This document shows, in pieces, positions 32,257 through 53,138 of a stretch of DNA of 64,000 nt. Under the pieces are notes generated by a model. That model was given only the letters and a program-made list of their open reading frames with translations, did not search any database and was not told where the DNA came from. Each line of letters begins with the position of its first letter. Position 1 is the stretch's first letter. Source of the DNA: Gulosibacter sp. 10 (GTDB taxonomy: Bacteria; Actinomycetota; Actinomycetes; Actinomycetales; Microbacteriaceae); assembly GCF_900163695.1 (NCBI RefSeq), contig NZ_FUIC01000017.1:1-64000 (forward strand). The letters run 5' to 3'. Position numbers and translations under genes: made by a program.

Positions 32257-33399
32257 ATGACCGCATTCTCCGAGGAGAACCGCACCTCGGCGGGCTTCTA
32301 CGTCACCGAAGAAGCCCCCATCCAGCCCGCGAACCCCATCAAGACCCCCGAGGCCCCGGCCCCGGACATCCTGCGCTGCGCCTACATGGACCTCGTCGTC
32401 ACCGACCTCGCCGCCTCGCGCCACTTCTACGTGGACGTGCTCGGCCTGCACGTGACCGAGGAGGACGACGAGGCGATCTACCTGCGCTCGACCGAGGAGT
32501 TCATCCACCACAACCTCGTGCTCCGCAAGGGCCCCGTCGCCGCCGTCGCCGCGTTCTCGTACCGCGTGCGCTCCGCCGAGGACCTCGACAAGGCCGTGGC
32601 CTTCTACGAGGAGCTCGGCTGCCGCGTCGAGCGCCGCCCCGAGGGCTTCACCAAGGGCATCGGCGACTCGGTGCGCGTGGAGGACCCGCTGGGCTTCCCC
32701 TACGAGTTCTTCTACGCCGCCGACCACGTGGAGCGCCTCTCCTGGCGCTACGACCTGCAGATCCCGGGCGAGCTCGTGCGCCTGGACCACTTCAACCAGG
32801 TCACCCCCGACGTGCCCCGCGCCGTGCGCCACTACCAGGACCTCGGCTTCCGCGTCACGGAGGACATCCAGGACAAGGAGGGCACCGTCTACGCCGCGTG
32901 GATGCGCCGCAAGCCCACCGTGCACGACACCGCCGCGACCGGCGGCGACGGCCCGCGCATGCACCACATCGCGTTCGCGACGCACGAGAAGCACAACATC
33001 CTCGCGATCTGCGACAAGCTCGGCGCGCTGCGCATGTCGGACGCGATCGAGCGCGGCCCCGGCCGCCACGGCGTCTCGAACGCGTTCTACCTCTACCTGC
33101 GCGACCCGGACGGGCACCGCGTCGAGATCTACACCCAGGACTACTACACGGGCGACCCGGACAACCCGGTCGTCACCTGGGACGTGCACGACAACCAGCG
33201 CCGCGACTGGTGGGGCAACCCGGTCGTGCCCTCGTGGTACACCGACGCCTCGCTCGTGCTCGACCTCGACGGCAACCCGCAGGAGGTCGTGGCCCGCACC
33301 GACGCGTCGGAGATGGCGCAGACCATCGGCGCCGACGGCTTCTCGTACACCCGCGAGGGCGACGAGGCGAAGGGCTACAAGCTGGGCAACCAGGTCTAG
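32257..33399 (+). CDS. hpaD: 3,4-dihydroxyphenylacetate 2,3-dioxygenase
   Basis: Extradiol dioxygenase of 380 residues of the vicinal-oxygen-chelate fold, like the well-studied Brevibacterium/Arthrobacter homoprotocatechuate enzymes (about 365 residues). With an offset of 23, the metal ligands of that enzyme correspond to H178 (RLDHFNQ), H237 (RMHHIAFAT) and E290 (RVEIY), and the second-sphere acid-base His to H223 (TVHDT); Y280 corresponds to the active-site Tyr. The two VOC modules begin at about 40 and 172. The C-terminal 45 residues form the lid typical of this group. It opens the ring of homoprotocatechuate, giving the substrate of HpaE. Confidence 0.93.
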   Translation: MTAFSEENRTSAGFYVTEEAPIQPANPIKTPEAPAPDILRCAYMDLVVTDLAASRHFYVDVLGLHVTEEDDEAIYLRSTEEFIHHNLVLRKGPVAAVAAFSYRVRSAEDLDKAVAFYEELGCRVERRPEGFTKGIGDSVRVEDPLGFPYEFFYAADHVERLSWRYDLQIPGELVRLDHFNQVTPDVPRAVRHYQDLGFRVTEDIQDKEGTVYAAWMRRKPTVHDTAATGGDGPRMHHIAFATHEKHNILAICDKLGALRMSDAIERGPGRHGVSNAFYLYLRDPDGHRVEIYTQDYYTGDPDNPVVTWDVHDNQRRDWWGNPVVPSWYTDASLVLDLDGNPQEVVARTDASEMAQTIGADGFSYTREGDEAKGYKLGNQV

Positions 33400-33504: not shown

Positions 33505-34401
33505 TCAACCGGCGCCGGACCCGAACTCGAGCCGCACCCGCATCGGGTCGAGCTGCTCGAGCTTCGCGATGCCCTGCTCGCCGATGCGCTCCGACACCTG
33601 CTCCGCGATGGCCTCGACGAGCGCGAGCCCGGGGACGAGCGAGTCGGAGGGCCCCGGGGCGTCGACGCTCGCGATGAGCACGACGTCGGCGATGCTCGCG
33701 ATCGGCGAGAGCCACCGGTCCGTCACGAGCACGAGCCGCGCCCCGCGCTGATCCACCTCCTGCGCGAGCAGCTCCGTGCTGCTCTGATAGCGGCGGAAGT
33801 CGAAGAGCACCCACACGTCGTTCTTCGCCCGGGAGTCGAGCACCAGCGAGGCCCGGTGCAGCGCGCTCTGCGGGCTCACGAGCACGTTGCCGCGGAAGAG
33901 CGAGAGCTGGGCCGCGAGGTGCTCGGCGAGCAGGCCCGAGAACGTGCCTCCGGCCGTGACGATCCGCCGCTTGGTGTCGGCGAGCCACTCGACCGTGCGG
34001 ATGTACTCCCCCGACGGCACCGAGCCCAGGGTCTTCTCGATCCCCTCGAGGAATACGCGCTTGCTCTCCTCCAGCGCGCCCGTGGCGCCCGTGTTCGCCT
34101 CGTGCGGGTTCGTCGACGTCGCCTGGGTGAGGACGGACTCCTGCCGCTCCTTGAGCTCGGTGCGGAGGCTCTCCTGGAACTCGCGGAACGAGTCGAATCC
34201 GAGGGATTTCACGAAGCGGACGATCGTGGCCGGGCTCACCGACGCGCGCTCCGCGAAGCGCTGGACGGTGTCCATGCCGGTCACGGGATAGTCGGTGGTC
34301 AGCGCGCGCGCGGCCCGCTTCTCGGCGCCCGTCAACGAGTCGAAATGCAACTGGATCCGTTCGGCAACGGTGCTCTGCCTGTCTCGCCCTGGATCGTTCA
34401 C
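33505..34401 (-). CDS. MurR/RpiR-family transcriptional regulator
   Basis: A 298-residue regulator. The GTG at 34401 is chosen because AGGAGA lies before it; the upstream frame is leader. Residues 8-80 form the HTH_6 domain (AERIQLHFDSLTGAEKRAARAL, FAERASVSPATIVRFVKSLGFDSFREFQESL). A linker of about 45 residues leads to the SIS domain from about 130 (RRIVTAGGTFSGLLAEHL, NDVWVLFDFRRYQSSTELL, VLVTDRWLSPIASIADVVL). It is the last gene of the Liv/oxidase operon, so it probably regulates that locus; the AT-rich inverted repeat at 43473-43514 is its likely target. The ligand is unknown, and phosphosugar binding need not hold here. Confidence 0.87.
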   Translation of the reverse strand: MNDPGRDRQSTVAERIQLHFDSLTGAEKRAARALTTDYPVTGMDTVQRFAERASVSPATIVRFVKSLGFDSFREFQESLRTELKERQESVLTQATSTNPHEANTGATGALEESKRVFLEGIEKTLGSVPSGEYIRTVEWLADTKRRIVTAGGTFSGLLAEHLAAQLSLFRGNVLVSPQSALHRASLVLDSRAKNDVWVLFDFRRYQSSTELLAQEVDQRGARLVLVTDRWLSPIASIADVVLIASVDAPGPSDSLVPGLALVEAIAEQVSERIGEQGIAKLEQLDPMRVRLEFGSGAG

Positions 34402-34533
34402 CGCTATCTCCTCTTTTCTCCGACCGCGGGGCCGCCGAGCGGCCGCCCGTCTCCTCGCCTTTTCTGCACGGGGTTTGCACGATACCGGTTGCCGGCTGGC
34501 GCGAACCGTCGCGCTCCACACCGCGCCGCGGGA

Positions 34534-35583
34534 TCAGGCCTTCTCCGCGACCGCCGGCGCGGCCCGGCCCCGCGCTCGCCTGCGGAATCCGAGTTCGCGA
34601 TGGCCCATGATCCCCAGCGGCCGGACGATCAGCACGATCAGCAGGATGACGGCGAGGACGAGCTCCGCGGTGCCCGGCGGGAAGGCGATGCCGAGGATCT
34701 GCCCGTCCTGCACGCGCCGCAGGAACTCCTGCAGGGCGCTGATCAGCAGCGTGCCCATCACCGCGCCGCTGAGCGAGAGGTAGCCGCCCACCACGATCAT
34801 CACCACGAACCCGAACATCGCCGCGATGAAGAACGCCGAGACGTGGAAGGTCGTGAGGAAGGAGGCGTAGAGCGAGCCCGAGATGCCGCAGAGGAAGCCG
34901 CTGAGCACCCAGGCGAGGAACCGATGCCGGCCCACGCTGATGCCCGAGGCCTCGGCGGCCCCCGCGTCCTCGCGCGAGGCCCGCAGCTGCAGGCCCGAGG
35001 AGGACACCTTGTAGAGCCAGGCCAGCACGATGGCGAGCACGGCGGCGCCGAGCGCCCACCACACGTCGACGGCCTGGGGGATGCCGATCATGCTCGAGGA
35101 GCCGCGGGTGACGTCCGTCCAGTTGTTGATGACGGTGAACACGATGAGCAGCAGCGAGAGCGTCGCGATGCCCGCCTGCAGGCCGCCGAGCCGCGCGATG
35201 GCGGGCCCGGTGAGGAGCGCGAGCCCGGCCGCGGCGACGCCCGAGAGCAGCAGCGCCACGGGGAAGGAGACCTCGAGGTCGAGCACCCACGCGAACGGCT
35301 CCGGCATGCTCGAGAACATCGACTGCTTGAGCCCGGCGGGGATGGTCAGGTACGCGGTGGCGTAGGCGCCGATCGCCATGAACGCGACGTGGCCGAAGGA
35401 CATGATCCCGGAATTGCCCGAGAACGTGAACAGGCCCACGACGAAGACCACGGAGATGAGCGCGAGCGTCGCGATGTACAGGATGATCGATCCCGAGACG
35501 ACGCCGATGACGGCGACGAGGACCGCGATCCCGCACAGGATGAGCGGGAGGGATTTCGTCGAGCGGAGCTCTTCGGTGAACAT
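34534..35583 (-). CDS. livM: Branched-chain amino acid-type ABC transporter permease, LivM
   Basis: Inner-membrane permease of 349 residues with about 9 hydrophobic segments. The ATG at 35583 overlaps the livH stop (ATGA). The permease loop GLQLRASREDAGAAEASGISVGRHRFLAWVLSGFLCGISGSL fits the EAA-like LivM consensus (visible part: REDAGAAEASGI). The FGHVAFMAIGAYATAYL stretch near residue 70 is also typical. Last component of a full importer (LivKGFHM). Given the enzymes around it, the cargo is probably an amino-acid derivative or amide rather than leucine or isoleucine (inference). Confidence 0.87.
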   Translation of the reverse strand: MFTEELRSTKSLPLILCGIAVLVAVIGVVSGSIILYIATLALISVVFVVGLFTFSGNSGIMSFGHVAFMAIGAYATAYLTIPAGLKQSMFSSMPEPFAWVLDLEVSFPVALLLSGVAAAGLALLTGPAIARLGGLQAGIATLSLLLIVFTVINNWTDVTRGSSSMIGIPQAVDVWWALGAAVLAIVLAWLYKVSSSGLQLRASREDAGAAEASGISVGRHRFLAWVLSGFLCGISGSLYASFLTTFHVSAFFIAAMFGFVVMIVVGGYLSLSGAVMGTLLISALQEFLRRVQDGQILGIAFPPGTAELVLAVILLIVLIVRPLGIMGHRELGFRRRARGRAAPAVAEKA

Positions 35584-36458
35584 CAGGACACCCGGACCTT
35601 CTCGCCCGACAGCAGTCCCTGGGGCCGGACCACCAGGATCGCCATCACGAGCGTGTAGAGGAATGCATCGCGGAAGGGCACCAGCTGCTGCGGGAGGAAG
35701 GCCTCCAGCCCCGCGCTGATGATGCCGAGGAGCAGGCCGCCGAGCACGGCGCCCCGGAGGTTGCTCATGCCGCCGAGCACGGCGCCGACCACGCCGATCA
35801 GCAGGGGCGAGAGCCCCATCTCGGCGGAGATCGCGCCCTGCCGGCCGACCAGGACGACCGCGGAGACGGCGCCGACCACGCCGACGATCGCGAACGCGCT
35901 GATCATCACCACGTTCGTCCTGATGCCGAGCACGTTCGCCATCTCGAAGTTCTCGGAGGAGGCGCGCAGCTGCGCGCCGAGAGAGGTCTTCTGCAGCAGG
36001 AGCATCACGCCCGCGAGCGTGATGCCGCACAGCGCGATCGTCACGAGCTGCAGCACCGATATGCGGCTGCCGAGCACCTCGAAGGAGGTGGACATGAAGC
36101 TCCGCGACGGGACGCCCTGCGCGCGCGGCAGCACCGTCATGCGCGCCACGCTCTGCAGGATGAGGCTCACCGCGAAGGAGGCGATCATCAGCGTCACCGG
36201 ATCGGCGTCGCGCAGCGGTCTGAAGGCGAGCCGCTCCGTGAGCACCGAGACGAGGACGCCCGCGGCGATGGCCGCGAGCAGCGCCACCGGCCAGGGCAGG
36301 GTCCGGCACAGGTACAGGGTGAAGGCCGCGGCGAGGATGATCTCGCCGTAGGCGAAGTTCATGAGTCCGAGGACCCCGAACAGCAGTGCGATGCCGATGG
36401 AGAGCAGGGCGTAGAACGCGCCGAGCCCCACCGCATCCACGATGAACTGGACGAACAT
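35583..36458 (-). CDS. livH: Branched-chain amino acid-type ABC transporter permease, LivH
   Basis: Inner-membrane permease of 291 residues, the usual LivH length. Opening GAFYALLSIGIALLFGVLGLMNFAYGEIILAAAF (landmark LGLMNFAYGE) is diagnostic. The coupling loop is LRASSENFEMANVLGIRTNVV near 170-190. GGMSNLRGAVLGGLLLGI precedes the last helices. The start follows the livF stop with no gap and the stop overlaps livM, so the four Liv genes are translationally coupled. Confidence 0.9.
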   Translation of the reverse strand: MFVQFIVDAVGLGAFYALLSIGIALLFGVLGLMNFAYGEIILAAAFTLYLCRTLPWPVALLAAIAAGVLVSVLTERLAFRPLRDADPVTLMIASFAVSLILQSVARMTVLPRAQGVPSRSFMSTSFEVLGSRISVLQLVTIALCGITLAGVMLLLQKTSLGAQLRASSENFEMANVLGIRTNVVMISAFAIVGVVGAVSAVVLVGRQGAISAEMGLSPLLIGVVGAVLGGMSNLRGAVLGGLLLGIISAGLEAFLPQQLVPFRDAFLYTLVMAILVVRPQGLLSGEKVRVS

Positions 36459-37190
36459 CTATTCCTCTCCCCTCGTGGCGGGCTCGAACCCCAGGTAGTC
36501 CACGACCGCGGGGCTCGCGGCGAGATCCGCCGCCCCGCCCTGGCCGATGATGCGCCCCGGCGGCTGGACCACGTAGGCGCGGTCCGAGATCTCGATGGCG
36601 CGGACGGCGTTCTGCTCGACGAGCATCACCGTCACGCCGTCCTCGGGGAGGGCGCCGATGAAGTCGAAGAGCATGTCGACGACGATCGGGGCGAGCCCGA
36701 GCGTCGGCTCGTCGAGGAGCAGCAGTCGCGGCCTCGAGACCAGGGCGCGGGCGATCACGAGCTGCTGCTGCTCGCCGCCCGACAGCCAGGAGGCGCCCTT
36801 GCCCCAGTACTTCCTGAGGATCGGGAAGCGCGCGAGCTGCGCCTCGATGTCGCGCTCGGCCTCGGCCCGGTCGCGCCGGGGCGTGGTGCCGAGGCGGAGG
36901 TTCTCGGCGACGGTGAGCTTGGCGAACACTCCGCGCTCCTCGGGCACGTAGGCGATCCCCCGCCTGACCCGCTGCTCGATGCGCCCCGAGGCCAGCGGGG
37001 AGTCCTCGAACGCGATCGTCCCGGCGGTGATCGGCGCGAGCCCCGCCACCGCCTTGAGCACGGAGGACTTGCCCGCGCCGTTCTGGCCGACGAGCGAGAC
37101 GATCTCGCCCTCGCCGACCGAGAAGGACGCGCCCTGGACGGCCTTGATCGATTTGCCGTACTGCACGTGCAGGTCGTTGATCTCAAGCAT
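36459..37190 (-). CDS. livF: ABC transporter ATP-binding protein, LivF
   Basis: Cytosolic ATPase of 243 residues. Walker A GQNGAGKS at 35-42, signature LSGGEQQQLVIARAL near 138-152, Walker B LLLLDEPTLGLAP, and a switch His replaced by Gln in the LVEQNAVRAIEISDRAYV segment, as is normal for LivF. Its start overlaps the end of livG by eight bases. Forms a pair with LivG to power uptake through LivHM. Confidence 0.9.
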   Translation of the reverse strand: MLEINDLHVQYGKSIKAVQGASFSVGEGEIVSLVGQNGAGKSSVLKAVAGLAPITAGTIAFEDSPLASGRIEQRVRRGIAYVPEERGVFAKLTVAENLRLGTTPRRDRAEAERDIEAQLARFPILRKYWGKGASWLSGGEQQQLVIARALVSRPRLLLLDEPTLGLAPIVVDMLFDFIGALPEDGVTVMLVEQNAVRAIEISDRAYVVQPPGRIIGQGGAADLAASPAVVDYLGFEPATRGEE

Positions 37191-37953
37191 GGTCGCCCTG
37201 CTTTCCGAAGTAGATCTCGATGACCCTGGGGTCGCGGTAGACCTCGGCCGGGTCGCCCTCCACGACGGTCCTGCCGCTGTCGAGCACGTGGAGCCGGTCG
37301 CAGGTGTTCATCACCACGGACATGTCGTGCTCGACGAGCAGCACGCCGCAGTTGCGCTTGAGCACGAGGTTCTTGATCGACTCGATCAGCTCCTCGCCCT
37401 CGCTCTCGTTCTGGCCCGCGGCGGGCTCGTCGAGCAGGATGAACCTCGGCCTGGTCGCGAGCGCCCGGGCGATGCCGATGCGCCGCACGAGGCCCGCCGA
37501 GGCGCTGCTGGCGGGGATCCCCTGGTGGTCGCCGAGCCAGAGCTCCTCGACGATCTCGTCGATGAGCGGCGCGGCCTCCCGGCTCGAGAGCCCGCTCCCC
37601 ACCGCGGCCGCCTCGATGTTCTGCCTCACGGTGAGGCGGTCGAAGGGGCGGACGCTCTGGAAGGTCCGGGCGATGCCGAGCCGGACGCGACGGCGGATGG
37701 GATCGCGCGTGACGTCCCGATCGCCCAGGCGGATCCTCCCCGCGCTCGGGCGGAGGAGCCCGCTGATGAGGTTGAGCGTGGTCGTCTTGCCCGAGCCGTT
37801 CGGCCCGATGAGCCCGAGGACCTCGCCCCGCCGCACCTCGAAGGAGACGTCGTCGACGGCCTTGACGGCGCCGAACGTGATGCCCGCGGCGTCGACGACG
37901 AGCGCCTCCGGTTCCGCCGCGGCGCTCGGCGCGGATGGGTTTTCCGTGTTCAC
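37183..37953 (-). CDS. livG: ABC transporter ATP-binding protein, LivG, with unusual signature motif
   Basis: ATPase subunit of 256 residues with a GTG start at 37953 and a 20-residue N-terminal extension (PSAPSAAAEPEAL). Walker A GPNGSGKT is intact near 50-57, the Q loop is TFQSVRPFDRLTV, Walker B RFILLDEPAAGQN, and the H loop LLVEHDMSVV. The ABC signature, normally LPYGQQRRLEIARAL in LivG, reads SASAGLVRRIGIARAL here, so the Gly-Gln pair that contacts ATP is replaced. As LivF keeps a standard signature, one of the two ATP sites may be degenerate. It follows livK with an 80-bp gap. Confidence 0.87.
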   Translation of the reverse strand: MNTENPSAPSAAAEPEALVVDAAGITFGAVKAVDDVSFEVRRGEVLGLIGPNGSGKTTTLNLISGLLRPSAGRIRLGDRDVTRDPIRRRVRLGIARTFQSVRPFDRLTVRQNIEAAAVGSGLSSREAAPLIDEIVEELWLGDHQGIPASSASAGLVRRIGIARALATRPRFILLDEPAAGQNESEGEELIESIKNLVLKRNCGVLLVEHDMSVVMNTCDRLHVLDSGRTVVEGDPAEVYRDPRVIEIYFGKQGDHA

Positions 37954-38035: not shown

Positions 38036-39292
38036 CTACTGCGTCGCGCAGGCGTTGCCGTCGCCGGTGTCGGGGATGAGCGCGGCCGTGTGCTGGGTCA
38101 CGAACTCGACCTCCCCGCCCGAGAGCTCGAGGATGCTGAAGGGGAAGTCGATGATCTTGTTGCAGGTCTCGTTGAAGTACTGCAGCTCGCCGATCGGCGT
38201 CTCCACGGCGATCCCCGCCTGGATGGTCTCGTAGATGGGCTCGGGCTCGAACGACGCCGTCTCCGCGAGCGCCTGCTCGAGCATGAGCATGAGGTTGTAC
38301 CCGTGCAGGGCGTATCCCGAGGAGGGCTCCGCGTCGTACTTCGCCTGGTAGGCGTCGACGAACTCCTGGGGCCCCTCGGAGTCGGCGCCGCTGCAGTACA
38401 CGTAGCACGTGAACGCCGTGTAGTACACGTCGGACACGTTGCCGGCGATGTCGATGAGCAGCTGGCCGTCGACGGCCGCGGGGGTCACGATCGGCAGGTC
38501 GATGCCGCTGTCGCGGATCTGCTTGACCGCGGTGGCCCCGGCCGGGTTCCAGCTCGCGACGTAGATGAAGTCGAGGTCCGCGGCGTTCGCCCGGATGTCG
38601 CTGATCTGCGCGCCGATGTCCACGGAGTCGCCGCCCGGGAAGCTGCTCGTCCCGACGACCTCGCCGCCGAGCTCCTCGAACGCCGCCTGGAAGTAGACGC
38701 CGGTCGACTTGGTGTACTCGATGCTCTCGTCCTGCAGCAGGTAGGCGGACGTCCAGTCCTGGTCGAACGCCCAGGACGCGCCCGTCGCGCCTTCCACGTC
38801 CGAGCCCGCGTTCGCCGTGAACACGTGATCGCCCAGCGTGGTCCGGTCGGCGGTCTTCGGGTCGCCCGCGCAGATCGAGATCGCCGGGATCCCGGCTCCC
38901 TGCGCGGCGATGGCCCCGGGGGCGCTGAGGTCGAAGTCGCAGGGGGTCACGATGAGGTCGGCGCCCTCGGCGATCAGCTCGGAGGTCACGACGCCCATCG
39001 TCTCGGTGCTGGACTGCACGTCCTTCACGACGGTGCGGATCTCGGTGCCGTCGATGCCCCCGTTCTCGTTGATCTCCTCCACCCGCAGGAGCGCGGCGTT
39101 GCCCGGTTCCACATCGAACGGGGCCATGTTGCCGCTCTGCGAGAGCGCGAAGCCGATCACGATCTCGTCGGCGTCGCCGGAGCCGCCCCCGCCGGCGGCC
39201 GCGCAGCCGCTCAGGACGAGCCCCGCGGCCGCCGTGAGGCCGATGGCGGCGGGCCCCCATCGCCGAGCGCTCGCTCGCTTGCTGGTATTCAT
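38036..39292 (-). CDS. livK: ABC transporter substrate-binding lipoprotein, LivK/Peripla_BP_6 type
   Basis: Periplasmic-type binding protein of 418 residues, anchored as a lipoprotein: signal peptide with lipobox LSGC near residue 30. The family opening DEIVIGFALSQSGNMAPFD and EINENGGIDG is clear, followed by SELIAEGADLIVTPCDFDLSAPGAIAAQGAGIP. The usual conserved serine-threonine ligand segment is represented by VTPCDFD. Several cysteines in the C-terminal half (TCYVYCSG, ETCNKI, NACATQ) may form disulfides. GGAGAAC ribosome binding site. It captures the substrate for LivGFHM; the ligand is not predictable. Confidence 0.88.
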   Translation of the reverse strand: MNTSKRASARRWGPAAIGLTAAAGLVLSGCAAAGGGGSGDADEIVIGFALSQSGNMAPFDVEPGNAALLRVEEINENGGIDGTEIRTVVKDVQSSTETMGVVTSELIAEGADLIVTPCDFDLSAPGAIAAQGAGIPAISICAGDPKTADRTTLGDHVFTANAGSDVEGATGASWAFDQDWTSAYLLQDESIEYTKSTGVYFQAAFEELGGEVVGTSSFPGGDSVDIGAQISDIRANAADLDFIYVASWNPAGATAVKQIRDSGIDLPIVTPAAVDGQLLIDIAGNVSDVYYTAFTCYVYCSGADSEGPQEFVDAYQAKYDAEPSSGYALHGYNLMLMLEQALAETASFEPEPIYETIQAGIAVETPIGELQYFNETCNKIIDFPFSILELSGGEVEFVTQHTAALIPDTGDGNACATQ

Positions 39293-39326: not shown

Positions 39327-40631
39327 TCACTGCTGATCGGCGACGCGTTGGAATGCCGTGCGCGCGACGTCGAGCGCCCGGTCGATATCTGCCTCGGTGG
39401 TGGAGGCGTTGAGTCGGCGGTCCCCGGTGGGGGCCGAGGGTTCGAGGACGCCGCCCTCGAGCAGCGTCTCGTGGTAGAGGCGGTAGCTCGCGGTGTCGAC
39501 GTCCATGGTGTCGCGGAAGGTGCGCGGCGCGCCCTGCCGGAAGTAGACGGCCCACTCGGAGCCGAGTCCGACGACGCTCGCCGTGGCTCCCGTCTCCGCG
39601 ATGGCCCGCTCGAGGCCGCTCCGGAGGCGGTCGCCGAGCTCGTAGAGCCGGTCGACGGTCCGCTCCCGCCGCATGATCTCGAGCGTCTTCAGCGCCGCGG
39701 CCACCGCGTAGGGCTGGCCGTTGTAGGTGCCGTCGATGGTGGCGGTGTCGCGGGCGTAGGCGCCGAGGTGCGCCATGACGGAGTCGCGGCCCGCGATGCC
39801 GGCCAGGGAGTAGCCGTTGGCGATGGCCTTGCCGAAGATCGCGAGGTCCGGGGTCACGCCGCAGATGCTCTGGTATCCCCCGAGCGCGGAGCGGAATCCG
39901 GTCTTCACCTCGTCCATGACGAAGACGACGGCGTGGCGGTCGCACAGCTCGCGGAGGGTCTCGAGGAACCCGGGCTCGGCCGGCACGCAGCCGAAGCTGT
40001 GCACGTAGCCCTCGGCGAAGGCCGCCGCGAGCTCGTCTCCGTGCTCGGCGAACGCCGCGCGGAGCCCGGCCTCGTCGTTCCACTCCACCACGACCACGTC
40101 GTCGGTGACGGCGGGGTGGAGGCCCGCGGAGTTCGGCGTGTTCAGCGGCGACTCGGGGGTCAGGTCCCCGCGGGCGCCGCCGACGGCGACGTGGTCGCTC
40201 CAGCCGTGATAGGAGCCGTGGAACTTGAGGATGCGGCGCCGTCCCGTGGCGGCGCGGGCCAGGTGCACCGCGTGCATGCCCGCGTCGGTCCCCGAGGTGC
40301 AGAACGCGACCTTCTCCGCGCACGGCATGAGGTCGCACACCTCCTCGGCGAGCTGCGCCTCGCCGAGCTGCGGGCCCACGCCCGTGATGTCGCAGGTGCT
40401 CGCGGCCTCGAAGACGGCGCGGTTCACCCGCTCGTCGCAGTGGCCGAGCACGATCGGGCCCCACGCGTTGAGGAAGTCGGTGTACTGCGCGCCCTCCTGG
40501 TCCCACAGGTAGGCCCCCTTCGCCCGCGTGAAGACCTGCTGCCAGCCGACGCGGTGGCCCGAGGAGACGCCTCGGGGCACGTATCGCTTCGCCTTCTCCC
40601 ATCCGGGCTGGGCTGATGAGTGCTGTGTCAT
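39327..40631 (-). CDS. Class III aminotransferase / glutamate-1-semialdehyde aminomutase-like
   Basis: PLP enzyme of 434 residues. The opening RYVPRGVSSGHRV resembles glutamate-1-semialdehyde 2,1-aminomutase, as do AFCTSGTDAGMHAVHLARAATGR and FHGSYHGWSDH. D240-E241 lie in FVMDEVKTGFR and the PLP lysine is K268 in IFGKAIANGYSLAGIAG. The gene is in a catabolic operon between a binding protein and a GMC oxidase, not among haem genes, and the family includes many amino-group transferases, so a role as aminotransferase or aminomutase on the pathway compound is more likely than haem synthesis. GAAGGA ribosome binding site. Confidence 0.83.
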   Translation of the reverse strand: MTQHSSAQPGWEKAKRYVPRGVSSGHRVGWQQVFTRAKGAYLWDQEGAQYTDFLNAWGPIVLGHCDERVNRAVFEAASTCDITGVGPQLGEAQLAEEVCDLMPCAEKVAFCTSGTDAGMHAVHLARAATGRRRILKFHGSYHGWSDHVAVGGARGDLTPESPLNTPNSAGLHPAVTDDVVVVEWNDEAGLRAAFAEHGDELAAAFAEGYVHSFGCVPAEPGFLETLRELCDRHAVVFVMDEVKTGFRSALGGYQSICGVTPDLAIFGKAIANGYSLAGIAGRDSVMAHLGAYARDTATIDGTYNGQPYAVAAALKTLEIMRRERTVDRLYELGDRLRSGLERAIAETGATASVVGLGSEWAVYFRQGAPRTFRDTMDVDTASYRLYHETLLEGGVLEPSAPTGDRRLNASTTEADIDRALDVARTAFQRVADQQ

Positions 40632-40689: not shown

Positions 40690-42126
40690 TCATCGGTCGA
40701 GCTCCTCGCGCAGGGCGGCGGTGAGCCGCTCCGCGATCATCGCCGTCGGCAGGTTCGAGTTGGCGCTCGGCACGAGCGGCATGATCGAGGCGTCGAAGAC
40801 GTGGGCGTTCTCGAGCCCGTGGATCCTGCCGCGCTGGTCGACCACCGCGCCCTCGTCGCCCTCCCCGCCCATCCGGGCGGTGCCGACCGCGTGGAAGTAG
40901 TCGCCGACGTAGGTGGAGAGCCACTGCTCGAAGAACTCCTCGTCCCGCAGCCGGTCGAGCGGGGTGCCGATCTCGTCGACGAACACCTCGTCGACGATGC
41001 GGCGGAAGCTCGGGGCCTCGAGGACGCGCTCGAGCGCGCGCATCGCGTCGCGCATCGCCGTGCGGTCCTCCTCGGTGCTGAGCATCCGCTCGTAGACCAC
41101 CGGGGGCTTCATCGGGTCCTCGGGGTCGAGCTCGAGGTATCCGGTGGAGGTCACGCGCATGAGCGCGGCCATGATGAGGCCGTGGTTGGCGGGGCCCGGA
41201 TGGAGCAGCGTGCCGTGCAGCGGCAGCAGGTTGATGTCGTGCTCGCGCACGGAGGAGGAGCAGCGCAGGACCGCGCCGATCGCGGGGATGCTCCGGTCGG
41301 CCTCGCGGTAGGGCTCCCGCATCGAGAAGTAGACGGAGGCGGCGGGATGGTCCTGCAGCCCCTTGCCGATGCCGGGCAGGTCGAGCCCGGTGCGCAGGAG
41401 GATCGACGGCGTCTCGAAGGCGCCGGCGCAGAGCACGACGCGATCGGCCTCGAGGATCCGGCCGTCGCCGAGGCGCACGCCCGTCGCCCGGCCGTCGCGG
41501 AGCTCTAGGCTGTGCACCTGCGAGCGGTCGAGGACGCGGAGGTTCGGGCGCGGGCGCGCGGGCTCGAGGTAGGCCTCGCGGCTCGAGTACCGCTTGCCGT
41601 CGCGCGCGTTGCGCCACAGCCGTCCGCTGCCGTCCACGGGCTCGTAGGTGTCGATGTCCTCGGGCAGGTCGAGCGCGCTGCCGGCCTCGATGAGCGCCCG
41701 GTCGACCGGGGTGAGCTCCTCGTCGGCCGAGACGACGAGATCCTCCTTGAGCAGCTCGAACCACGGCCGGACGTGCTCCCAGCTCCACTCGTCGAGCCCG
41801 AAGTCCTCGACCCAGGCCCGGTAGTCCTCGGGCACGCCCGGCACCGCGAGCATCGCGTTCGTCGTCGCCGAGCCCCCGACGCCGGTGCCCCTGCGGTAGG
41901 GGCGGGCCGGATCGTTCTCCAGCTTCTCGGCGTAGAGGTCGCTGTAGAAGGCGTCGGCCTCCTCGAGCGCGTCGAGCCAGTTCACGGAGGTGAGGTTCGG
42001 CAGCGAGGCCAGCGGGGTGTCGGGCCCGGCCTCCAGCAGCGTGACCCGGATGTCGGGGCATTCGGTCAGGCGGGCCGCGACGATGCATCCGGCGGTGCCC
42101 GCGCCTACGACGATGATGTGTTCCAT
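40690..42126 (-). CDS. GMC-family FAD oxidoreductase
   Basis: Glucose-methanol-choline oxidoreductase of 478 residues, short for the family (usually 500-570). FAD-binding VVGAGTAGCIVAARL at residues 6-20, GTGVGGSATTNAMLAVPG near 82-99 (GMC signature 1 region), and VVLCAGAFETPSILLRTG (signature 2) near 225-242. The C-terminal active site is FHAVGTARMGGEGDEGAV, giving the catalytic His, and SANSNLPTAMIAER with the partner Asn. It probably oxidises an alcohol or amine-derived alcohol to a carbonyl. It follows the MftD-like gene by 41 bp; in mycofactocin loci a GMC enzyme (MftG) also accompanies MftD. Confidence 0.86.
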   Translation of the reverse strand: MEHIIVVGAGTAGCIVAARLTECPDIRVTLLEAGPDTPLASLPNLTSVNWLDALEEADAFYSDLYAEKLENDPARPYRRGTGVGGSATTNAMLAVPGVPEDYRAWVEDFGLDEWSWEHVRPWFELLKEDLVVSADEELTPVDRALIEAGSALDLPEDIDTYEPVDGSGRLWRNARDGKRYSSREAYLEPARPRPNLRVLDRSQVHSLELRDGRATGVRLGDGRILEADRVVLCAGAFETPSILLRTGLDLPGIGKGLQDHPAASVYFSMREPYREADRSIPAIGAVLRCSSSVREHDINLLPLHGTLLHPGPANHGLIMAALMRVTSTGYLELDPEDPMKPPVVYERMLSTEEDRTAMRDAMRALERVLEAPSFRRIVDEVFVDEIGTPLDRLRDEEFFEQWLSTYVGDYFHAVGTARMGGEGDEGAVVDQRGRIHGLENAHVFDASIMPLVPSANSNLPTAMIAERLTAALREELDR

Positions 42127-42167: not shown

Positions 42168-43349
42168 CTAGCGGGCCGGTCGCTGGAAGAAGTCGCTGTT
42201 CAGGACCATGAGGTCGTCTCGGGATATCTCGTCGAGGCTGGATCGGCCGATGCCGAGCATGGTCTCCCGGACGCCGCGCTTGAGGATGTCGAGCACCCGG
42301 TAGACGCCCGCCTGGCCGGCGACGGCGAGGCCGTAGAGATACGCGCGGCCCACGAACACCGCCTTGGCGCCGAGCGCGAGGCACTTCACGACGTCGGATC
42401 CGCGGCGCACGCCGCCGTCGACCATGACCTCGATGCGGTCGCCGACCGCCTCCGCGATATAGGGCAGGAAGCGGATCGTGGCGGGCGTGCCGTCGATGTT
42501 GTTGCCGCCGTGGTTGGAGACCGAGATCGCGTCGGCGCCGATGTCGACGGCGATCTCGGCGTCCTTGACGGTGGTGATGCCCTTGATCATGAGCGGCCCG
42601 TCCCAGATGCCGCGGATCCACTCGATGTCCGCGACGGTCGGGGCCGGGGTCTGCTCGAACTCGCTCCAGGCCTCGCCGAAGTAGGGGATGTGGCCGTCCG
42701 GCATGAACAGGTTCGGCACCTTGAGCTCGGGGATGCGGCCGCGTCGGAGATACTGGGCCAGCCAGCCGGGCCGCGAGAGCGCGATCGGCGCGAGCCGCGC
42801 CATCGTCGCGAGGCCGAGGTCGCTGGGCGGCGCGATCGGCACGCCCCCGTCGCGACGCGGCGTGTGCGACCAGTCCAGGGTGACGATGAGCGCCTTGGCG
42901 CCGGCCTCCCGGGCCCGCTCCACGCGGCGGCGGATGCGGTCGCGCGTGCCCACCCAGTAGAGCTGGAAGAACGTGTCGGGGTTGGCGCCGACCACGCGGT
43001 CGACCGGGTCGGCCGACCACGAGCTGAGCCCCATGGCGGTGCCCATCTGGTGGGCCGCGGCGGCCGCGGCGGTCTCTCCCCCGGGGTGGATCGCCTGGGC
43101 GCCCACCGGCGACACGATGACGGGGAAGCCGATGTCGACGCCCATGATCCTCGTGGCGGTGTCGATGCTCGCGGGCCGGTCGAAGATCGTCGGCGAGAAG
43201 CCCAGCTGCTCGAATGCGCGGACGTTCTCCGAGAGCGTCCACTGCTTCTCGTTGCCCGCCTTCACCGCGAGCCAGACGTCGTGCGGCAGTTTGCGCTTCG
43301 CGAGCTTCTCCGCTTCGGCGAGCGTCTGGAAAGGCACCGGTCCAACCAT
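42168..43349 (-). CDS. MftD-like FMN-dependent alpha-hydroxy-acid oxidase family protein
   Basis: FMN enzyme of 393 residues with a TIM-barrel fold. Landmarks: PVIVSPVGAQAIHPGGE at 76-92, FFQLYWVGTRD, LIVTLDW, K256 in LMIKGITT, catalytic H280 in AISVSNHGGNNIDGTPA, and VMVDGGVRRGSDVVKCLALGAKAVFVGRAYLYGLAVAG. It resembles MftD, the pre-mycofactocin synthase, more than lactate or glycolate oxidase, including the KLPHDVW start and WTLSENVRAFEQLGFSP. In lactate-type enzymes the residue three after the His is Arg and binds the substrate carboxylate; here it is N283, as in MftD. No mftA, B, C, E or F gene is in the window. First gene of the long minus operon; AAGGAGG ribosome binding site. Confidence 0.85.
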   Translation of the reverse strand: MVGPVPFQTLAEAEKLAKRKLPHDVWLAVKAGNEKQWTLSENVRAFEQLGFSPTIFDRPASIDTATRIMGVDIGFPVIVSPVGAQAIHPGGETAAAAAAHQMGTAMGLSSWSADPVDRVVGANPDTFFQLYWVGTRDRIRRRVERAREAGAKALIVTLDWSHTPRRDGGVPIAPPSDLGLATMARLAPIALSRPGWLAQYLRRGRIPELKVPNLFMPDGHIPYFGEAWSEFEQTPAPTVADIEWIRGIWDGPLMIKGITTVKDAEIAVDIGADAISVSNHGGNNIDGTPATIRFLPYIAEAVGDRIEVMVDGGVRRGSDVVKCLALGAKAVFVGRAYLYGLAVAGQAGVYRVLDILKRGVRETMLGIGRSSLDEISRDDLMVLNSDFFQRPAR

Positions 43350-43472
43350 CTCGTTCCTCCTTGAACGTCATCGGCCGCGTCGCGGTCCGTCGTGAACGGC
43401 GACGCTCGAGGCTTCGGAAGAAACCTCTCAGCTTGCGTCAAGCGTAAGGAATCGACACGAACATTTCAATAC

Positions 43473-43514
43473 AAATATTTCAAGTCATCAAAAACTCGAC
43501 ACTTTGAAATATTT
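43473..43514. promoter_or_regulatory. AT-rich inverted repeat in shared control region
   Basis: AAATATTTCAA (43473-43483) and its exact inverse TTGAAATATTT (43504-43514) lie between the divergent MftD-like and GS-like genes. The 80-bp stretch 43441-43520 is far more AT-rich than its surroundings. An RpiR regulator is encoded in the operon and such regulators bind GAAAnnTTTC-type sites, so this is a plausible common operator (inference). Confidence 0.5.
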
Positions 43515-43582
43515 CTGCAATGCTGACCTGACGCTACGAAGCCGGTGCGCAGCGCTGCGCCCGATCGATCGGAGGGAAGCCG

Positions 43583-44899
43583 ATGCCGCAAGAGTCCGCA
43601 TTCGAGCCGCTGGAGGACGTCGTATTCATCGCCACGAGCGATCTCGCGGCCCGCACGAAGGGGCGCGCGCTGCCCGCGCGCCGATTCGACGAGACGACCT
43701 CGGTCGGCTGGGTGCCGGCGAACATCGGCATCGGCCCGCTCGGCCACATCGTGGACGGCATCCCGTTCGGCGCCTCCGGGGACCTCCGGCTCCGGCCCGA
43801 TCCCGCCTCGCGCGTGCGGATCCCGCGGATCGGCGAGCGGCCGGCGTTCGACCTGGTGTTCGGCGACCTCGTGGAGGTGGACGGCGAGCCCTGGCACTCG
43901 TGCCCGCGGACGTTCCTGCGGGAGACGGTGCGCGAGCTCCGCGAGGAGTTCGGCATCGAGGCGCGCTCCACCTTCGAGCACGAGTTCGTCGATCTCTCGG
44001 CCGGCCCCGACCACCACCCGTTCTCGCTCGAGGCCTTCCGCCGCGCCGAGCCCCTCGGCTCGACGCTGCTCGCGCTGCTCGAGCGCATGGGGCTCGAGCC
44101 CGAGAACTGGCTACCGGAGTACGCGAAGCACCAGTACGAGATCACCCTCGAGCCGACCGATCCGCTGACCTCCGCGGACCGGGCCATCCTGCTCCGCGAC
44201 CTCGTCCGCGACCTCTTCGAGGCGCACGGCAGAAGGGCGACCTTCGCGCCGATCACCGAGGAGGGCGGCGGCGGCAGCGGCGTCCACGTGCATTTCGGCC
44301 TCTACGACGAGTCCGGCCGGACCCTCCTCTTCGACCCGGACCGCCCGGGGCGGCTCTCGGAGCTCGGCGGCCGGTTCGCGGCCGGCGTCATCCGGCACGC
44401 GCCCGGCCTGACCGCGCTCTTCGCCCCGCTGCTCACGAGCTACCAGCGGCTCCGGCCCCACAACTGGTCCACGGCGCGCGCCTTCCTCGGCGTGCAGAAC
44501 CGCGAGGCGCTGCTGCGCATCTGCCCCACCAACGAGCTCGACGGCCGGGACCCCTCGCGCCAGCTCCACTTCGAGTTCCGCGGCAGCGATGCCGGCGCCA
44601 ACCCGTGGCTGCTGCTCGGGGCGCTGCTGCGGGCGGGGATGGCCGGGCTGCGCGAGTCCCTCGACCCCGCCGAGGTCGTCGAGGGCGACCTCGACCTGGA
44701 GGGCCGCCACGCGGGCCTCGCGCCGCTGCCGGAGCGCCTCGAGGACGCGCTCGACGCCATGCTCGCCGACGAGACCGTGACGGGATGGTTCTCGCCCGAG
44801 CTCGTCGAGACCTTCGCCGCCATCAAGCGGGACGAGCTCCGACTGCTCCGGAGCCGTTCGCTCGCGGAGCAGATCGAGGTGTACTCCCGTGTCCTCTGA
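43583..44899 (+). CDS. Glutamine-synthetase-like (gamma-glutamyl ligase type) protein
   Basis: Glutamine synthetase family member of 438 residues. Catalytic-domain marks: EHEF (E132, E134) after STF, E186 in KHQYEITLEP, GGGGSGVHVHFGL (H235, H237) in place of the usual GSGMHVHQS, and FEFRGSDAGANPWLLLGALL near the end. The N-terminal beta-grasp part is reduced and lacks the adenylylation-loop tyrosine region. This is the pattern of PuuA, GlnA3/4 and FluG-type ligases that join glutamate to amines rather than assimilate ammonia. Overlaps the next gene, an amidohydrolase, by 11 bp. GGAGGG ribosome binding site at start. Confidence 0.85.
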   Translation: MPQESAFEPLEDVVFIATSDLAARTKGRALPARRFDETTSVGWVPANIGIGPLGHIVDGIPFGASGDLRLRPDPASRVRIPRIGERPAFDLVFGDLVEVDGEPWHSCPRTFLRETVRELREEFGIEARSTFEHEFVDLSAGPDHHPFSLEAFRRAEPLGSTLLALLERMGLEPENWLPEYAKHQYEITLEPTDPLTSADRAILLRDLVRDLFEAHGRRATFAPITEEGGGGSGVHVHFGLYDESGRTLLFDPDRPGRLSELGGRFAAGVIRHAPGLTALFAPLLTSYQRLRPHNWSTARAFLGVQNREALLRICPTNELDGRDPSRQLHFEFRGSDAGANPWLLLGALLRAGMAGLRESLDPAEVVEGDLDLEGRHAGLAPLPERLEDALDAMLADETVTGWFSPELVETFAAIKRDELRLLRSRSLAEQIEVYSRVL

Positions 44900-46049
44900 T
44901 CATCGAGACCTCAACGGGCTGCCGCTGTTCGACCACCACTGCCACACGATCTCCGGCAGGCCGCTCGAGCGGGACGAGTTCGAGTCCCTGATCAGCGAGT
45001 CCACGGCCCCGCCGCCCGCCGGGGCGACCAACTTCGACTCGCCCGTGGGCTTCGCGATCCGCCGCCACTGCGCGCCGGCGCTCGGCCTCGAGCCGTTCGC
45101 CTCGCCCGAGGAGTACCTCGAGGAGCGCGCCCGCCTCGGCGTCGAGGCCGCGAACCGCCGGCTCATGCGGGCCGCGGACATCCGGCTCCTCGGCATCGAG
45201 ACCGGCATCCACGCCCCCGGCGCCCTCGACGCCGCCGCTACCGCCGAGGCCGCCGGCGCCGACCACCGCGAGATCCTGCGCCTGGAGCGCCTCGCCGAGA
45301 CGGTCGCCGCGGACATGCGCGAGCGGGGCGAGCCGGCCGCGGAGCTGCTCGCCCGGTTCGGCGCCGCGCTCGACGCCGGGCTCCGCACGGCGATCGGCGT
45401 GAAGACCATCGCCGCCTACCGGATCGGCCTCGACTTCGAGCCCGCGCGCCCCTCGCCCGAGGAGGTCGAGGCCACCGCGGCGCGCTGGTTCGCCGGCACC
45501 GGGCGGCACGAGTTCCGGCTCGCCGAGCCGACGATCATCCGGGCCCTGATCTGGGCGGCGGTGGACCGCGGCTGCATGATCCAGGTCCACGTCGGCTACG
45601 GCGACGACGATCTCGACCTCGACCGCTGCGATCCGCTCCGACTCACGAGCCTGCTGCGGGCCACCGCCGCGACCGGCGCGAGATTCGCCCTGCTGCACTG
45701 CTACCCGTTCCACCGCGAGGCGGGGTACCTCGCCCACGTGTTCCCCCACGTCTGGTTCGACGTGGGGCTCGCGATCCACTACTCGGGCGCGCGATCGCCG
45801 GCCGTCATCGCCGAATCGCTGGAGCTCGCGCCCTTCCGCAAGATCCTGTTCTCCACGGACGCGTACGCGCTGCCCGAGTTCTACCTGCTCGGCGCGCTCC
45901 TGTTCCGCCGCGGCCTCGCCGCCGTGCTGCGGGGTTTCCGCGAGCACGACGGCTGGCCGGCCGAGGAGTGCCGCCGCATCGCCCTCGACCTCGGATACCG
46001 CAACGGGCTGCGCGCCTACGGCCTCGACGAGAAAGCACTCCGCTCATGA
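44889..46049 (+). CDS. Amidohydrolase-2 family protein (FluG N-terminal type)
   Basis: Protein of 386 residues with a GTG start overlapping the GS-like gene. Metal-site motif FDHHCH near residues 14-19, MIQVHVGYGDDDLDLDRCDPLRL near 235, LLHCYPFHREAGYLAHVFPHVWFDVGLA, and KILFSTDAYALPEFYLLGA with the terminal Asp. This is the arrangement of the amidohydrolase half of FluG-like proteins, in which it is fused to a GS-like half; here the two halves are separate, overlapping genes. Likely hydrolyses or decarboxylates a product or substrate of the ligase. The substrate is unknown. Confidence 0.83.
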   Translation: MSSDHRDLNGLPLFDHHCHTISGRPLERDEFESLISESTAPPPAGATNFDSPVGFAIRRHCAPALGLEPFASPEEYLEERARLGVEAANRRLMRAADIRLLGIETGIHAPGALDAAATAEAAGADHREILRLERLAETVAADMRERGEPAAELLARFGAALDAGLRTAIGVKTIAAYRIGLDFEPARPSPEEVEATAARWFAGTGRHEFRLAEPTIIRALIWAAVDRGCMIQVHVGYGDDDLDLDRCDPLRLTSLLRATAATGARFALLHCYPFHREAGYLAHVFPHVWFDVGLAIHYSGARSPAVIAESLELAPFRKILFSTDAYALPEFYLLGALLFRRGLAAVLRGFREHDGWPAEECRRIALDLGYRNGLRAYGLDEKALRS

Positions 46050-47254
46050 ACCACGACTCCCCCGCCGACCTCATCGACGACTGGCGATCCGCGCTGCGCG
46101 AGGAGCTGCCCTTCGCGCTGGAGCTGCGGCGCGCGCTGCACCGCGACCCCCGCGTCTCGGGCCGCGAGGGGGACACCCGCGACGCGATCATCGAGGCCGC
46201 CGGCATCGACATGGCCCCCGTGGCCGAGACCGGCGCGATCGGGCGGGTGGGCCCTCCCCACGGGCCGAGCATCGGCATCCGGGCCGAGCTCGACGCGCTC
46301 CCCGTGCATGAGAAGACCGGCATCGACTGGGCCTCCGCGAACGGCGCGATGCACGCGTGCGGCCACGACGTGCACCTCGCGGCGCTCACCGCGGTCGTGC
46401 GCGCGGCCGCACGGATCGAGCTCCCCTACGGCCTGGTGCCGATCCTGCAGCCCCGCGAGGAGGCCTATCCCTCCGGAGCCCTCGACATCAGCCGCTCGGG
46501 CGCCCTCGACGAGTTCGAGGTCGCGCACGTCATCGGCGCGCACGTGCACCCCAACGTGACGCCGGGGTCGGTGGCCACCGGCGGCGGATTCGTCAACGCC
46601 GCGGCCGGCGAGATCGAGATCTCCGTGGCGGGGCGGGGCGGCCACGGCGCGTACCCGCACCACGCCTCCGACGTCATCTCGACGCTCGCCTCCATCGCGC
46701 TCGCGATCCCCGAGGTGCTGCGCCGGACCGTGGACCCCCTCGTCCCCGCCCTCGTCAGCGTCGGGACGCTCGAGGCGGGGAACGGCGCGGCGAACGTCCT
46801 CGCCGATCGCGGCCGCATCCTGGCCACCGTCCGCACCACCCGGGCCGGGGACGCCCGCACGATCGTCGACGCCGTCGAGCGCATGGCGCGGGGGCAGGCC
46901 GAGTCGTTCGGCACCTTCGCCACCACCTCGTACGTCGAGGGCGAGCCCACGCTCTCCAACGATCGCGAGCTGAGCCGCGTGATCGACGGCCTGCTGCCGG
47001 AGGCGGGGCTGAGCGCCTCCGAGCCGATGCGCTCGCTGGGCGCCGACGACTTCTCCTACTTCAGCGACGCCCGCCCCTCGGTGATGTGCTTCGTCGGCGT
47101 GGAGTCCCGCGGCCCCGGCGGGCGCCATTCGCTCCACGACGCCGAGTTCCTCCCCGACGAGGGCGCGGTGGAGCGGGTCGCGCACACGCTCGTCGTCGGC
47201 TACGCCGCCGCCGCGAGCAGGCTCGCGAAGGCGCCGCGGAGGCATCCCGCGTAG
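46046..47254 (+). CDS. M20 family amidohydrolase (N-acyl-amino acid hydrolase-like)
   Basis: M20D metallopeptidase-like hydrolase of 402 residues. Metal ligands appear in MHACGHDVHL (C105, H107, H110), QPREEAYPSGA (catalytic/ligand E138-E139), an His in IGAHVHPN and the C-terminal LGADDFSYF / RHSLHDAEF. The dimerisation domain inserts at about 185-290 (VSVAGRGGHGAYPHHASD-like segment). Family members cleave N-acetyl, N-benzoyl (hippurate) or indole-acetyl amino acids. The ATG overlaps the amidohydrolase stop by four bases, completing a three-gene operon. Likely releases an amino acid from an acylated substrate taken up by the Liv importer (inference). Confidence 0.87.
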   Translation: MNHDSPADLIDDWRSALREELPFALELRRALHRDPRVSGREGDTRDAIIEAAGIDMAPVAETGAIGRVGPPHGPSIGIRAELDALPVHEKTGIDWASANGAMHACGHDVHLAALTAVVRAAARIELPYGLVPILQPREEAYPSGALDISRSGALDEFEVAHVIGAHVHPNVTPGSVATGGGFVNAAAGEIEISVAGRGGHGAYPHHASDVISTLASIALAIPEVLRRTVDPLVPALVSVGTLEAGNGAANVLADRGRILATVRTTRAGDARTIVDAVERMARGQAESFGTFATTSYVEGEPTLSNDRELSRVIDGLLPEAGLSASEPMRSLGADDFSYFSDARPSVMCFVGVESRGPGGRHSLHDAEFLPDEGAVERVAHTLVVGYAAAASRLAKAPRRHPA

Positions 47255-53076: not shown

Positions 53077-53101
53077 GCCCCGCGGATGGTCTCCGCGGGG
53101 C
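53077..53101 (-). terminator. Hairpin after the fimbrial protein gene
   Basis: GCCCCGCGGA / TCCGCGGGGC, 10-bp stem, 5-nt loop, downstream of the minus-strand gene; no T-run. Confidence 0.5.
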
Positions 53102-53138
53102 GCCGCCGCCCGCATCCGGTCGAGAGGACCGGCGCCAG

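Follow-up and report, generated by a model that had tools for sequence, protein, structure and literature searches.

In a 64,000-nucleotide stretch of the genome of Gulosibacter sp. 10, hereafter the window, the gene at positions 42168 to 43349 encodes a flavin mononucleotide (FMN) oxidoreductase that we call MftDL for its resemblance to MftD, the pre-mycofactocin synthase. MftDL and its closest relatives form a separate clade that carries the MftD active-site signature, and the gene is the first of a conserved and compact gene string. On balance, and with guarded confidence, we favour the reading that MftDL is a paralogue of pre-mycofactocin synthase acting outside mycofactocin biosynthesis, where its neutral substrates (alpha-amino- or alpha-hydroxy-amides, lactams or lactones) would be oxidised as part of a pathway for an imported amine. 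An enzyme type so far tied to one cofactor pathway appears to have a rare sister family with a conserved module of its own.

The 393-residue open reading frame has the coordinates and the strand given in the initial annotation, and contains a full FMN_dh domain (PF01070, 346.9 bits). The solved structures nearest to it are those of lactate, glycolate and other hydroxy-acid oxidases. The gene and its two diagnostic sites are as follows.

42168..43349, minus strand: MftDL, MftD-like FMN oxidoreductase of 393 residues, operon gene 1 (PF01070, TIGR03966, clade support 100/100)
42504..42512, minus strand: codons 280-282, the catalytic base His280 followed by Gly281 and Gly282 (H280 conserved)
42498..42503, minus strand: codons 283-284, Asn283-Asn284, which are Arg-Gln in most other FMN_dh rows of the alignment

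The motif that first drew attention to the gene, SNHGGNN with an Asn in place of a carboxylate-binding Arg, is present as H280 and N283-N284. The alignment compares six MftDL sequences, 68 distinct MftD sequences and 11 other members of FMN_dh, and H280 is found in all of them. Position 283 is N in 6/6 MftDL and 68/68 MftD rows and R in 11/11 of the others; N283 is therefore not a chance variant, and the initial annotation was right that MftD carries the same change. The complete NN pair is likewise found in 6/6 MftDL and 68/68 MftD, while Q284 occupies the second position in nine of the 11 other rows.

Residue equivalences were counted along the alignment of MftDL to spinach glycolate oxidase (GOX, 1gox), whose chain numbering in that alignment runs one above the GOX residue numbers used here. 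N283 stands at the position of Arg257 and A28 at that of Tyr24, both replaced, and R166 (Arg164), Y131 (Tyr129), K256 (Lys230), H280 (His254) and D159 (Asp157) are the kept counterparts. The Tyr24 column reads A in 6/6 MftDL and in 66/68 MftD (S in the remaining 2/68), and Y in 10/11 other rows, with a gap in the eleventh (L125). Because N283 replaces Arg257 and A28 replaces Tyr24, two carboxylate-binding residues are altered and not one. The proposed loss of the Arg that grips the carboxylate thus holds for the Arg257 equivalent and reaches further, to Tyr24, but it does not extend to the other carboxylate Arg equivalent, R166, which is retained. MftDL shares with LldD, glycolate oxidase and mandelate dehydrogenase the FMN_dh domain, the catalytic His, the Lys, the Asp and one carboxylate Arg, and differs from them in the replaced Arg257 and Tyr24 equivalents; of the features expected of an FMN alpha-hydroxy-acid oxidase it therefore has the domain and the catalytic His and lacks the other two residues.

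The resemblance to MftD (TIGR03966, Rv0694 type) is closer and includes the FMN_dh domain, a length of about 390 residues, A28, W132, D159-W160, R166 and the string H280-G-G-N283-N284. The two nevertheless differ at 18 consistent positions (W26, W111, H162 and Y339 are examples), each of them invariant in MftDL and occupied by a different residue in 90% or more of the MftD rows; they share 45-57% identity, and MftDL sits in another operon and in genomes that have no MftC above cut-off.

Some of these differences bear on whether MftDL could still be an alpha-hydroxy-acid oxidase, with R166, R165 and H162 binding the carboxylate in an altered geometry and the amine being degraded via a 2-hydroxy acid. 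All three residues are present in 6/6 MftDL, unlike in MftD, which has F162 in 68/68 rows and G165 in 53/68 (R165 in 7/68). In addition, W111 of MftDL aligns with Trp108 of GOX, at a position where 67/68 MftD rows have F. We nonetheless hold this activity to be unlikely, since the Tyr24 and Arg257 equivalents are lost just as they are in MftD, which oxidises a lactam (PMC8728441), and since the tree described below parts MftDL from all 11 other FMN_dh rows, E. coli LldD included.

In that tree the MftDL clade has six members, from the window, Leucobacter salsicius, L. weissii, the genomes G958 and G981, and Streptomyces sp. AJS327; G958 and G981 are called Leucobacter here because they are members of the genus group of L. 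salsicius. The clade has a support of 100/100 and a stem of 0.75 changes per column. Identity is 66-89% within MftDL and 29-37% between MftDL and the 11 other FMN_dh rows, and within MftD it ranges from 54 to 100% (median 70). MftDL groups with MftD, apart from E. coli LldD and the ten other rows, so that among the rows compared the placement with lactate or glycolate oxidases that would have refuted the initial annotation was not seen. The free tree does not recover the MftD rows as one group (2 changes), which they form in 40% of 200 bootstrap trees; MftDL could accordingly be nested within MftD. A tree in which the 75 MftD rows were constrained to one clade has a better likelihood than the free search (log-likelihood +1.69; approximately unbiased test, p-AU 0.55), so that a placement of MftDL as the sister clade of MftD is favoured, not proven.

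The alignment and tree hold 93 rows, of which seven are duplicates (six adjacent mftD pairs, one copy having been taken twice, and the identical L023 and L024). They took only matches for which a locus was available, namely 30 of 102 at class level and 22 of 22 at order level, with the window's own gene counted in both, as well as 20 of the 23 over-cut-off matches at family level; L029, at a contig end, was left out, and L030 and the window's gene entered from longer stretches. Of the other FMN_dh rows, 11 in all, two come from the window's genome, one is E. coli LldD, five are from plasmids (drawn from the 40 hits listed) and three are distant ones from Microbacteriaceae. LldD is the only characterised enzyme among them, glycolate, lactate-oxidase and mandelate enzymes having been compared through the solved-structure search only.

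MftDL is rare. Two peptide patterns run over 84,980 species genomes returned three loci, a search that misses diverged members, and besides the window's genome no listed match exceeded 55% identity in the class sample (394 genomes) or the order sample (297 genomes). The gene occurs in 1/11 genomes of the window's genus, the window's own, and in 4/54 genomes of the genus of L. salsicius. Genome G967 (L114 10117-11364) encodes an FMN_dh protein of a third kind: its motif is SNHGGNML, with Asn at the Arg257 position and Tyr24 kept, it is 37-38% identical to the window's MftDL and it scores below the TIGR03966 cut-off. The same contig has an NMT1-type ABC transporter, an AMP-binding enzyme and a Cys/Met pyridoxal-phosphate enzyme.

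The resemblance to MftD extends to family scores. On TIGR03966, the NCBIfam equivalog model for pre-mycofactocin synthase, MftDL scores 514.3 bits against a cut-off of 470.85, and the remaining five clade members score 531-542 bits. Standard annotation would thus call MftDL a pre-mycofactocin synthase, a name that is probably wrong for all six proteins and that would lead to false conclusions about mycofactocin in their hosts. Among 299 genomes of the same bacterial family, the 20 full-length matches above 600 bits score 632-712; MftDL and one full-length match of the same clade are the only ones between 500 and 600 bits, apart from a match of 543 bits cut by a contig end, and three others fall below the cut-off.

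MftDL is not the MftD of a mycofactocin locus. A tblastn search of the 64 kb with an annotated set of MftA to MftG and MftR gave MftDL and the neighbouring GMC gene as its only significant matches; there was none for MftA, MftB, MftC, MftE or MftF, and of these MftA, B, E and F were sought in the window alone. In the genome (3.65 Mb, completeness 99.08) the best MftC match reaches 41.8 bits against a cut-off of 265, so that the position outside a mycofactocin locus claimed from the window is borne out by the genome. MftC above cut-off is found in none of the six MftDL genomes and in 27 of the 38 genomes of a panel picked mainly for MftD. The mycofactocin-coupled short-chain dehydrogenase/reductase (SDR, TIGR03971) is absent above cut-off from five of the six MftDL genomes, including the window's (best match 269.9 bits against 300); the sixth, L. 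weissii, has such an SDR and a true MftD beside MftDL.

These data also bear on a salvage function, in which the cell would import a mycofactocin precursor and finish it with MftDL acting as its MftD. Such a role would agree with the score above the TIGR03966 cut-off and with the occurrence elsewhere of MftD without MftC, seen in 6/33 MftD genomes of the panel, two of which keep MftF and MftG but have none of MftA, B, C and E close by; a case of this kind has been published (PMC11778925). It is very improbable all the same, given that the window has no MftF and a GMC protein other than MftG, that no mycofactocin SDR exceeds its cut-off in this genome, that MftDL forms a clade of its own with 18 consistent differences from MftD and that L. 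weissii keeps MftDL next to a true MftD.

The six panel genomes with an MftD-clade gene and no MftC above cut-off are L. weissii (L113 9887-11134), G966 (L115), G064, G132, G463 and G406, the genes of the last two having an unresolved place in the tree. The L. weissii and G966 loci keep MftR, MftG, MftD and MftF; a search of their stretches of 20 and 13.6 kb gave no match to MftA, B, C or E. The similar published case is that of Herbiconiux sp. L3-i23 (PMC11778925). These genes may reflect loss, or salvage of mycofactocin precursors. In genome G937 (L120, genus of L. salsicius) MftD at C1:334269 belongs to an mftR-mftG-mftD-mftF locus, and MftC lies far off at C1:616958, about 280 kb away. Six genomes of one genus (G726, G761, G773, G786, G825 and G847) have two adjacent mftD copies on opposite strands, with 115-241 bp between the matches.

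The two genes that come next in the operon are the following.

40690..42126, minus strand: GMC-family flavin adenine dinucleotide (FAD) oxidoreductase of 478 residues, not MftG (PF00732/PF05199)
39327..40631, minus strand: class III aminotransferase of 434 residues, similar to HemL/glutamate-1-semialdehyde aminomutase (PF00202)

The GMC gene directly follows MftDL, as had been noted, after a gap of 41 bp. MftDL, GMC and the HemL-like aminotransferase stand in that order in 6/6 loci, and a conserved GMC neighbour of a separate clade is what had been named beforehand as support for a distinct function. The likeness of the partner to MftG did not hold. On the MftG models TIGR03970, TIGR04542 and NF038210 it scores 218.4, 152.2 and 70.7 bits, against cut-offs of 387.45, 400 and 300; in the four loci tested the module GMC proteins reach 184-219 bits on TIGR03970, and a real MftG reaches 435.8. 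The partner is 31% identical to MftG, and its scores below the cut-offs rule out that it is one. Nor was the order MftD-MftG a sound precedent, the annotated mft locus that was examined having mftG in the interval from mftR to mftA and oriented opposite to mftD.

In the samples searched, the GMC orthologue has the same distribution as MftDL. It is found (E 1e-70) in 4/54 genomes of the genus of L. salsicius, exactly those with MftDL, and in the class sample it is confined to the window's genome (1/394, E 1e-95, with the best four candidates per genome scored). Its best plasmid relative, 49% identical, is annotated as a GMC oxidoreductase, and the surrounding 23 kb carry no annotated mft gene. 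The nearest solved structures of the aminotransferase are glutamate-1-semialdehyde aminomutases; of the 25 curated families listed for it, it reaches the cut-off of none, and its orthologues in 5/5 other loci are 68-73% identical.

GMC oxidoreductases paired with class III aminotransferases occur in aminoglycoside pathways. MftDL might on this model belong to a specialised-metabolite cluster in which the GMC enzyme and the aminotransferase make an amine from an alcohol. Besides that precedent, weak matches to the structures 7dve and 7lld are in line with the idea, as is the position of the best plasmid relative of the GMC protein, whose Streptomyces neighbourhood includes genes for AMP-binding, condensation, P450 and glycosyltransferase proteins. 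The content of the rest of the module, however, makes it quite improbable: the same string encodes a Liv importer and an RpiR regulator, a gamma-glutamyl ligase and hydrolases are present, and no exporter, carrier protein or assembly enzyme is found among the twelve module genes.

The other module genes of the window, and the intergenic region between its two units, are listed below.

38036..39292, minus strand: LivK-type substrate-binding protein (PF13458, 156.2 bits)
37183..37953, minus strand: LivG-type ABC ATPase (best NCBIfam match LivG PRK11300, 187.8 bits, below the cut-off of 362)
36459..37190, minus strand: LivF-type ABC ATPase (orthologues 65-67% identical in three Leucobacter loci)
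35583..36458, minus strand: LivH-type permease (orthologues 62-64% identical in three Leucobacter loci)
34534..35583, minus strand: LivM-type permease of 349 residues, start inferred (orthologues 60-66% identical in three Leucobacter loci)
33505..34521, minus strand: MurR/RpiR-type regulator with HTH_6 and SIS domains (PF01418, PF01380)
43350..43582, no strand: divergent promoter region of 233 bp with two AT-rich near-palindromes (motif count)
43583..44899, plus strand: glutamine synthetase-like gamma-glutamyl-amine ligase of 438 residues, PA5508-like (4hpp)
44889..46049, plus strand: amidohydrolase of 386 residues similar to the N-terminal part of FluG (PF04909, 42 bits)
46046..47254, plus strand: M20-family amidohydrolase, start inferred, overlapping the preceding stop (TIGR01891, 206.5 against 153.75 bits)

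Read along the window, the nine genes RpiR-LivM-LivH-LivF-LivG-LivK-aminotransferase-GMC-MftDL form one string with gaps of -8 to 82 bp; the ligase, the amidohydrolase and the M20 hydrolase make up a divergent unit. L. salsicius, G958 and G981 have the same twelve genes in a second order, Streptomyces sp. AJS327 has seven of the twelve in a third, and the L. weissii module ends after LivK at the end of its contig. The core of the module thus consists of MftDL, the GMC oxidoreductase, the HemL-like aminotransferase, the RpiR regulator (linked in the Streptomyces locus and in three Leucobacter loci), the PA5508-like ligase, the FluG-like amidohydrolase and the M20 hydrolase, mostly with the Liv importer. 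In the divergent promoter region, the near-palindrome GAAATATTTC lies at 43506-43515 and a copy with one mismatch at 43472-43481; the window has 2 matches against 0.10 expected, a number as high being reached in 1/100 shuffles, and no clear counterpart was found in the other module loci.

The structure nearest to the ligase is 4hpp (321.6 bits, the next reaching 130.2), which we take to be PA5508. In E. coli GlnA, Glu327 binds ammonium; PuuA has Tyr at its position, and the 5/5 module ligases have Trp. All five retain the residues that bind metal and glutamate (E129, E131, E212, E220, H269, R321, R339, E357 and R359), and the Asp50 position, which aligns poorly (D in the window's row), was not used. 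Since Glu327 is replaced and the metal- and glutamate-binding residues are kept, the ligase points to amines rather than ammonia as substrates, and the glutamine synthetase-like protein to a gamma-glutamyl-amine ligase. The only significant solved relative of the amidohydrolase is 2qpx, presumably LSEI_0440, and the M20 hydrolase is nearest to 4ewt; the family and structure scans of the latter used longer upstream starts.

Comparable gene sets exist elsewhere. The E. coli Puu genes encode a ligase, an oxidase, a class III aminotransferase, a hydrolase, a transporter and a regulator in one region, as the module does; they differ in that PuuA is 26% identical to the ligase, in that the oxidases and the transporter are of other kinds and in that the module has no aldehyde dehydrogenase. 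The module may work in a Puu-like way but does not qualify as a Puu pathway. Two separate module genes, which are not fused, match the two halves of Aspergillus FluG via the structures 2qpx and 4hpp; the second half of FluG can be replaced by PA5508 (PMC6478659). Plasmids of Shinella and Ensifer carry, annotated together, an RpiR regulator, a Liv importer, a PA5508-like ligase (41-43% identical), hydrolases and a distant class III aminotransferase (27-28% identical), and neither an MftDL nor a GMC match was found in the 19-21 kb examined. Because these plasmid stretches share the chassis without MftDL and GMC, the module looks like a recurrent chassis for amine use to which the MftDL-GMC-aminotransferase trio has been joined. 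On a Terrarubrum flagellatum plasmid (L131 9029-11290) an RpiR/SIS regulator and a PA5508-like ligase are annotated as one frame, beside a Liv importer.

The kind of amine might be indicated by the left flank of the window. Homoprotocatechuate meta-cleavage genes lie at 28539-33399 (an FAA-hydrolase/RraA fusion, HpaE and HpaD, the latter two over their cut-offs), and tyramine oxidase B-like and amine-oxidase-like genes at 14857-17253. If these neighbours mark the substrate class, the substrate would be aromatic, either an amine or an amino alcohol, and akin to tyramine, octopamine or the catecholamines. HpaD ends 105 bp from the module, and bulky amines, catecholamines for instance, are reported to be favoured by PA5508 over polyamines (Ladner 2012 as cited in PMC6478659). 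We rate this substrate class as rather improbable, because the flanking genes were not found in the Leucobacter and Streptomyces stretches examined, where only distant class III aminotransferase matches appeared.

Taken together, the module suggests the following possible steps for the imported-amine pathway that we favour. The importer would take up a nitrogen-containing small molecule, which the RpiR regulator would sense either directly or through a metabolite, and the ligase would cap the amine with glutamate in a gamma-glutamyl amide bond, the reaction that PuuA carries out on putrescine. MftDL could then oxidise an amino- or hydroxyl-bearing carbon beside a neutral carbonyl (amide, lactam or lactone), in the manner of MftD with the lactam AHDP, and the GMC enzyme an alcohol. 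The aminotransferase would remove or move an amino group, and the hydrolases would release glutamate or the acyl part. A non-carboxylate small molecule had been one of two substrate classes offered in the initial annotation; for the other, a peptide-derived compound, no evidence was found.

Several points weigh against this scheme. The activities of the module enzymes are putative and assigned by family membership. R166, and within the MftDL clade R165, could still bind a carboxylate, and an AlphaFold model built from four sequences (mean predicted local distance difference test, pLDDT, of 64, with the active-site loop 281-289 below 50) is too poor for a reading of the pocket. The Streptomyces locus has no Liv importer within 10 kb, and the absence of an aldehyde dehydrogenase among the twelve genes sets the module apart from Puu. 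The window's FluG-type amidohydrolase shares no more than 45-49% identity with its counterparts elsewhere, and PF04909 also includes decarboxylases. Last, the split of MftD in the free tree would permit a position of MftDL inside MftD.

More broadly, and tentatively, MftD and MftDL may together make up a group of FMN oxidases that act on neutral amides, lactams and lactones with an alpha-amino (or alpha-hydroxy) group, with MftDL as the catabolic branch in a new gamma-glutamyl-linked pathway; we consider this possible but doubtful. MftD uses FMN to oxidise the 3-amino group of a lactam (PMC8728441, PMC7491314), and an FMN-dependent L-pantolactone dehydrogenase of Nocardia and Amycolatopsis acts on a neutral alpha-hydroxy lactone (PMC10384591). 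The latter resembles the chemistry proposed for MftDL in being an FMN enzyme with a neutral substrate; the same source lists four active relatives from Nocardia, Amycolatopsis and Cnuibacter that are 71-91% identical to the Nocardia asteroides enzyme. The L-pantolactone dehydrogenases (GAD85679.1, WP_017981470.1) and their relatives may be MftD proteins. Were the proposal true, an imported amine would be deaminated next to an amide rather than a carboxylate, and the enzyme type used to make mycofactocin would have a place outside cofactor biosynthesis as well. Should the module be an amine pathway, it would offer a route to new oxidase chemistry beside a neutral amide or lactone, and MftDL an outgroup for the origin of MftD. 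Among the papers listed in searches of the openly licensed PMC literature, we noticed none on an MftD paralogue outside mft loci.

Other genes near the module loci were considered and set aside. An Orn/Lys/Arg-decarboxylase-like gene stands divergently beside MftDL in the four Leucobacter-group loci (L035 10903-12435, L093 8289-9845, L111 10666-12234 and L112 8187-9761), the family match being available for three of them and the fourth resting on position and size only. As it does not stand beside MftDL in the window or in Streptomyces, and as L111 has a radA gene some kilobases farther on, we provisionally regard its proximity as an effect of the site and not as a sign of membership in the pathway. 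HglS, GDH, ornithine aminotransferase and mycothiol-formaldehyde genes by the Streptomyces locus were dropped as clues, not being part of the window module. Family scans of L037:9763-11160 and L117:10161-11561 returned no families. Beyond the right end of the module, at 50638-56912, the window encodes two large proteins with surface-protein domains, one with T-Q ester-bond domains and one with SpaA and SdrD_B domains.

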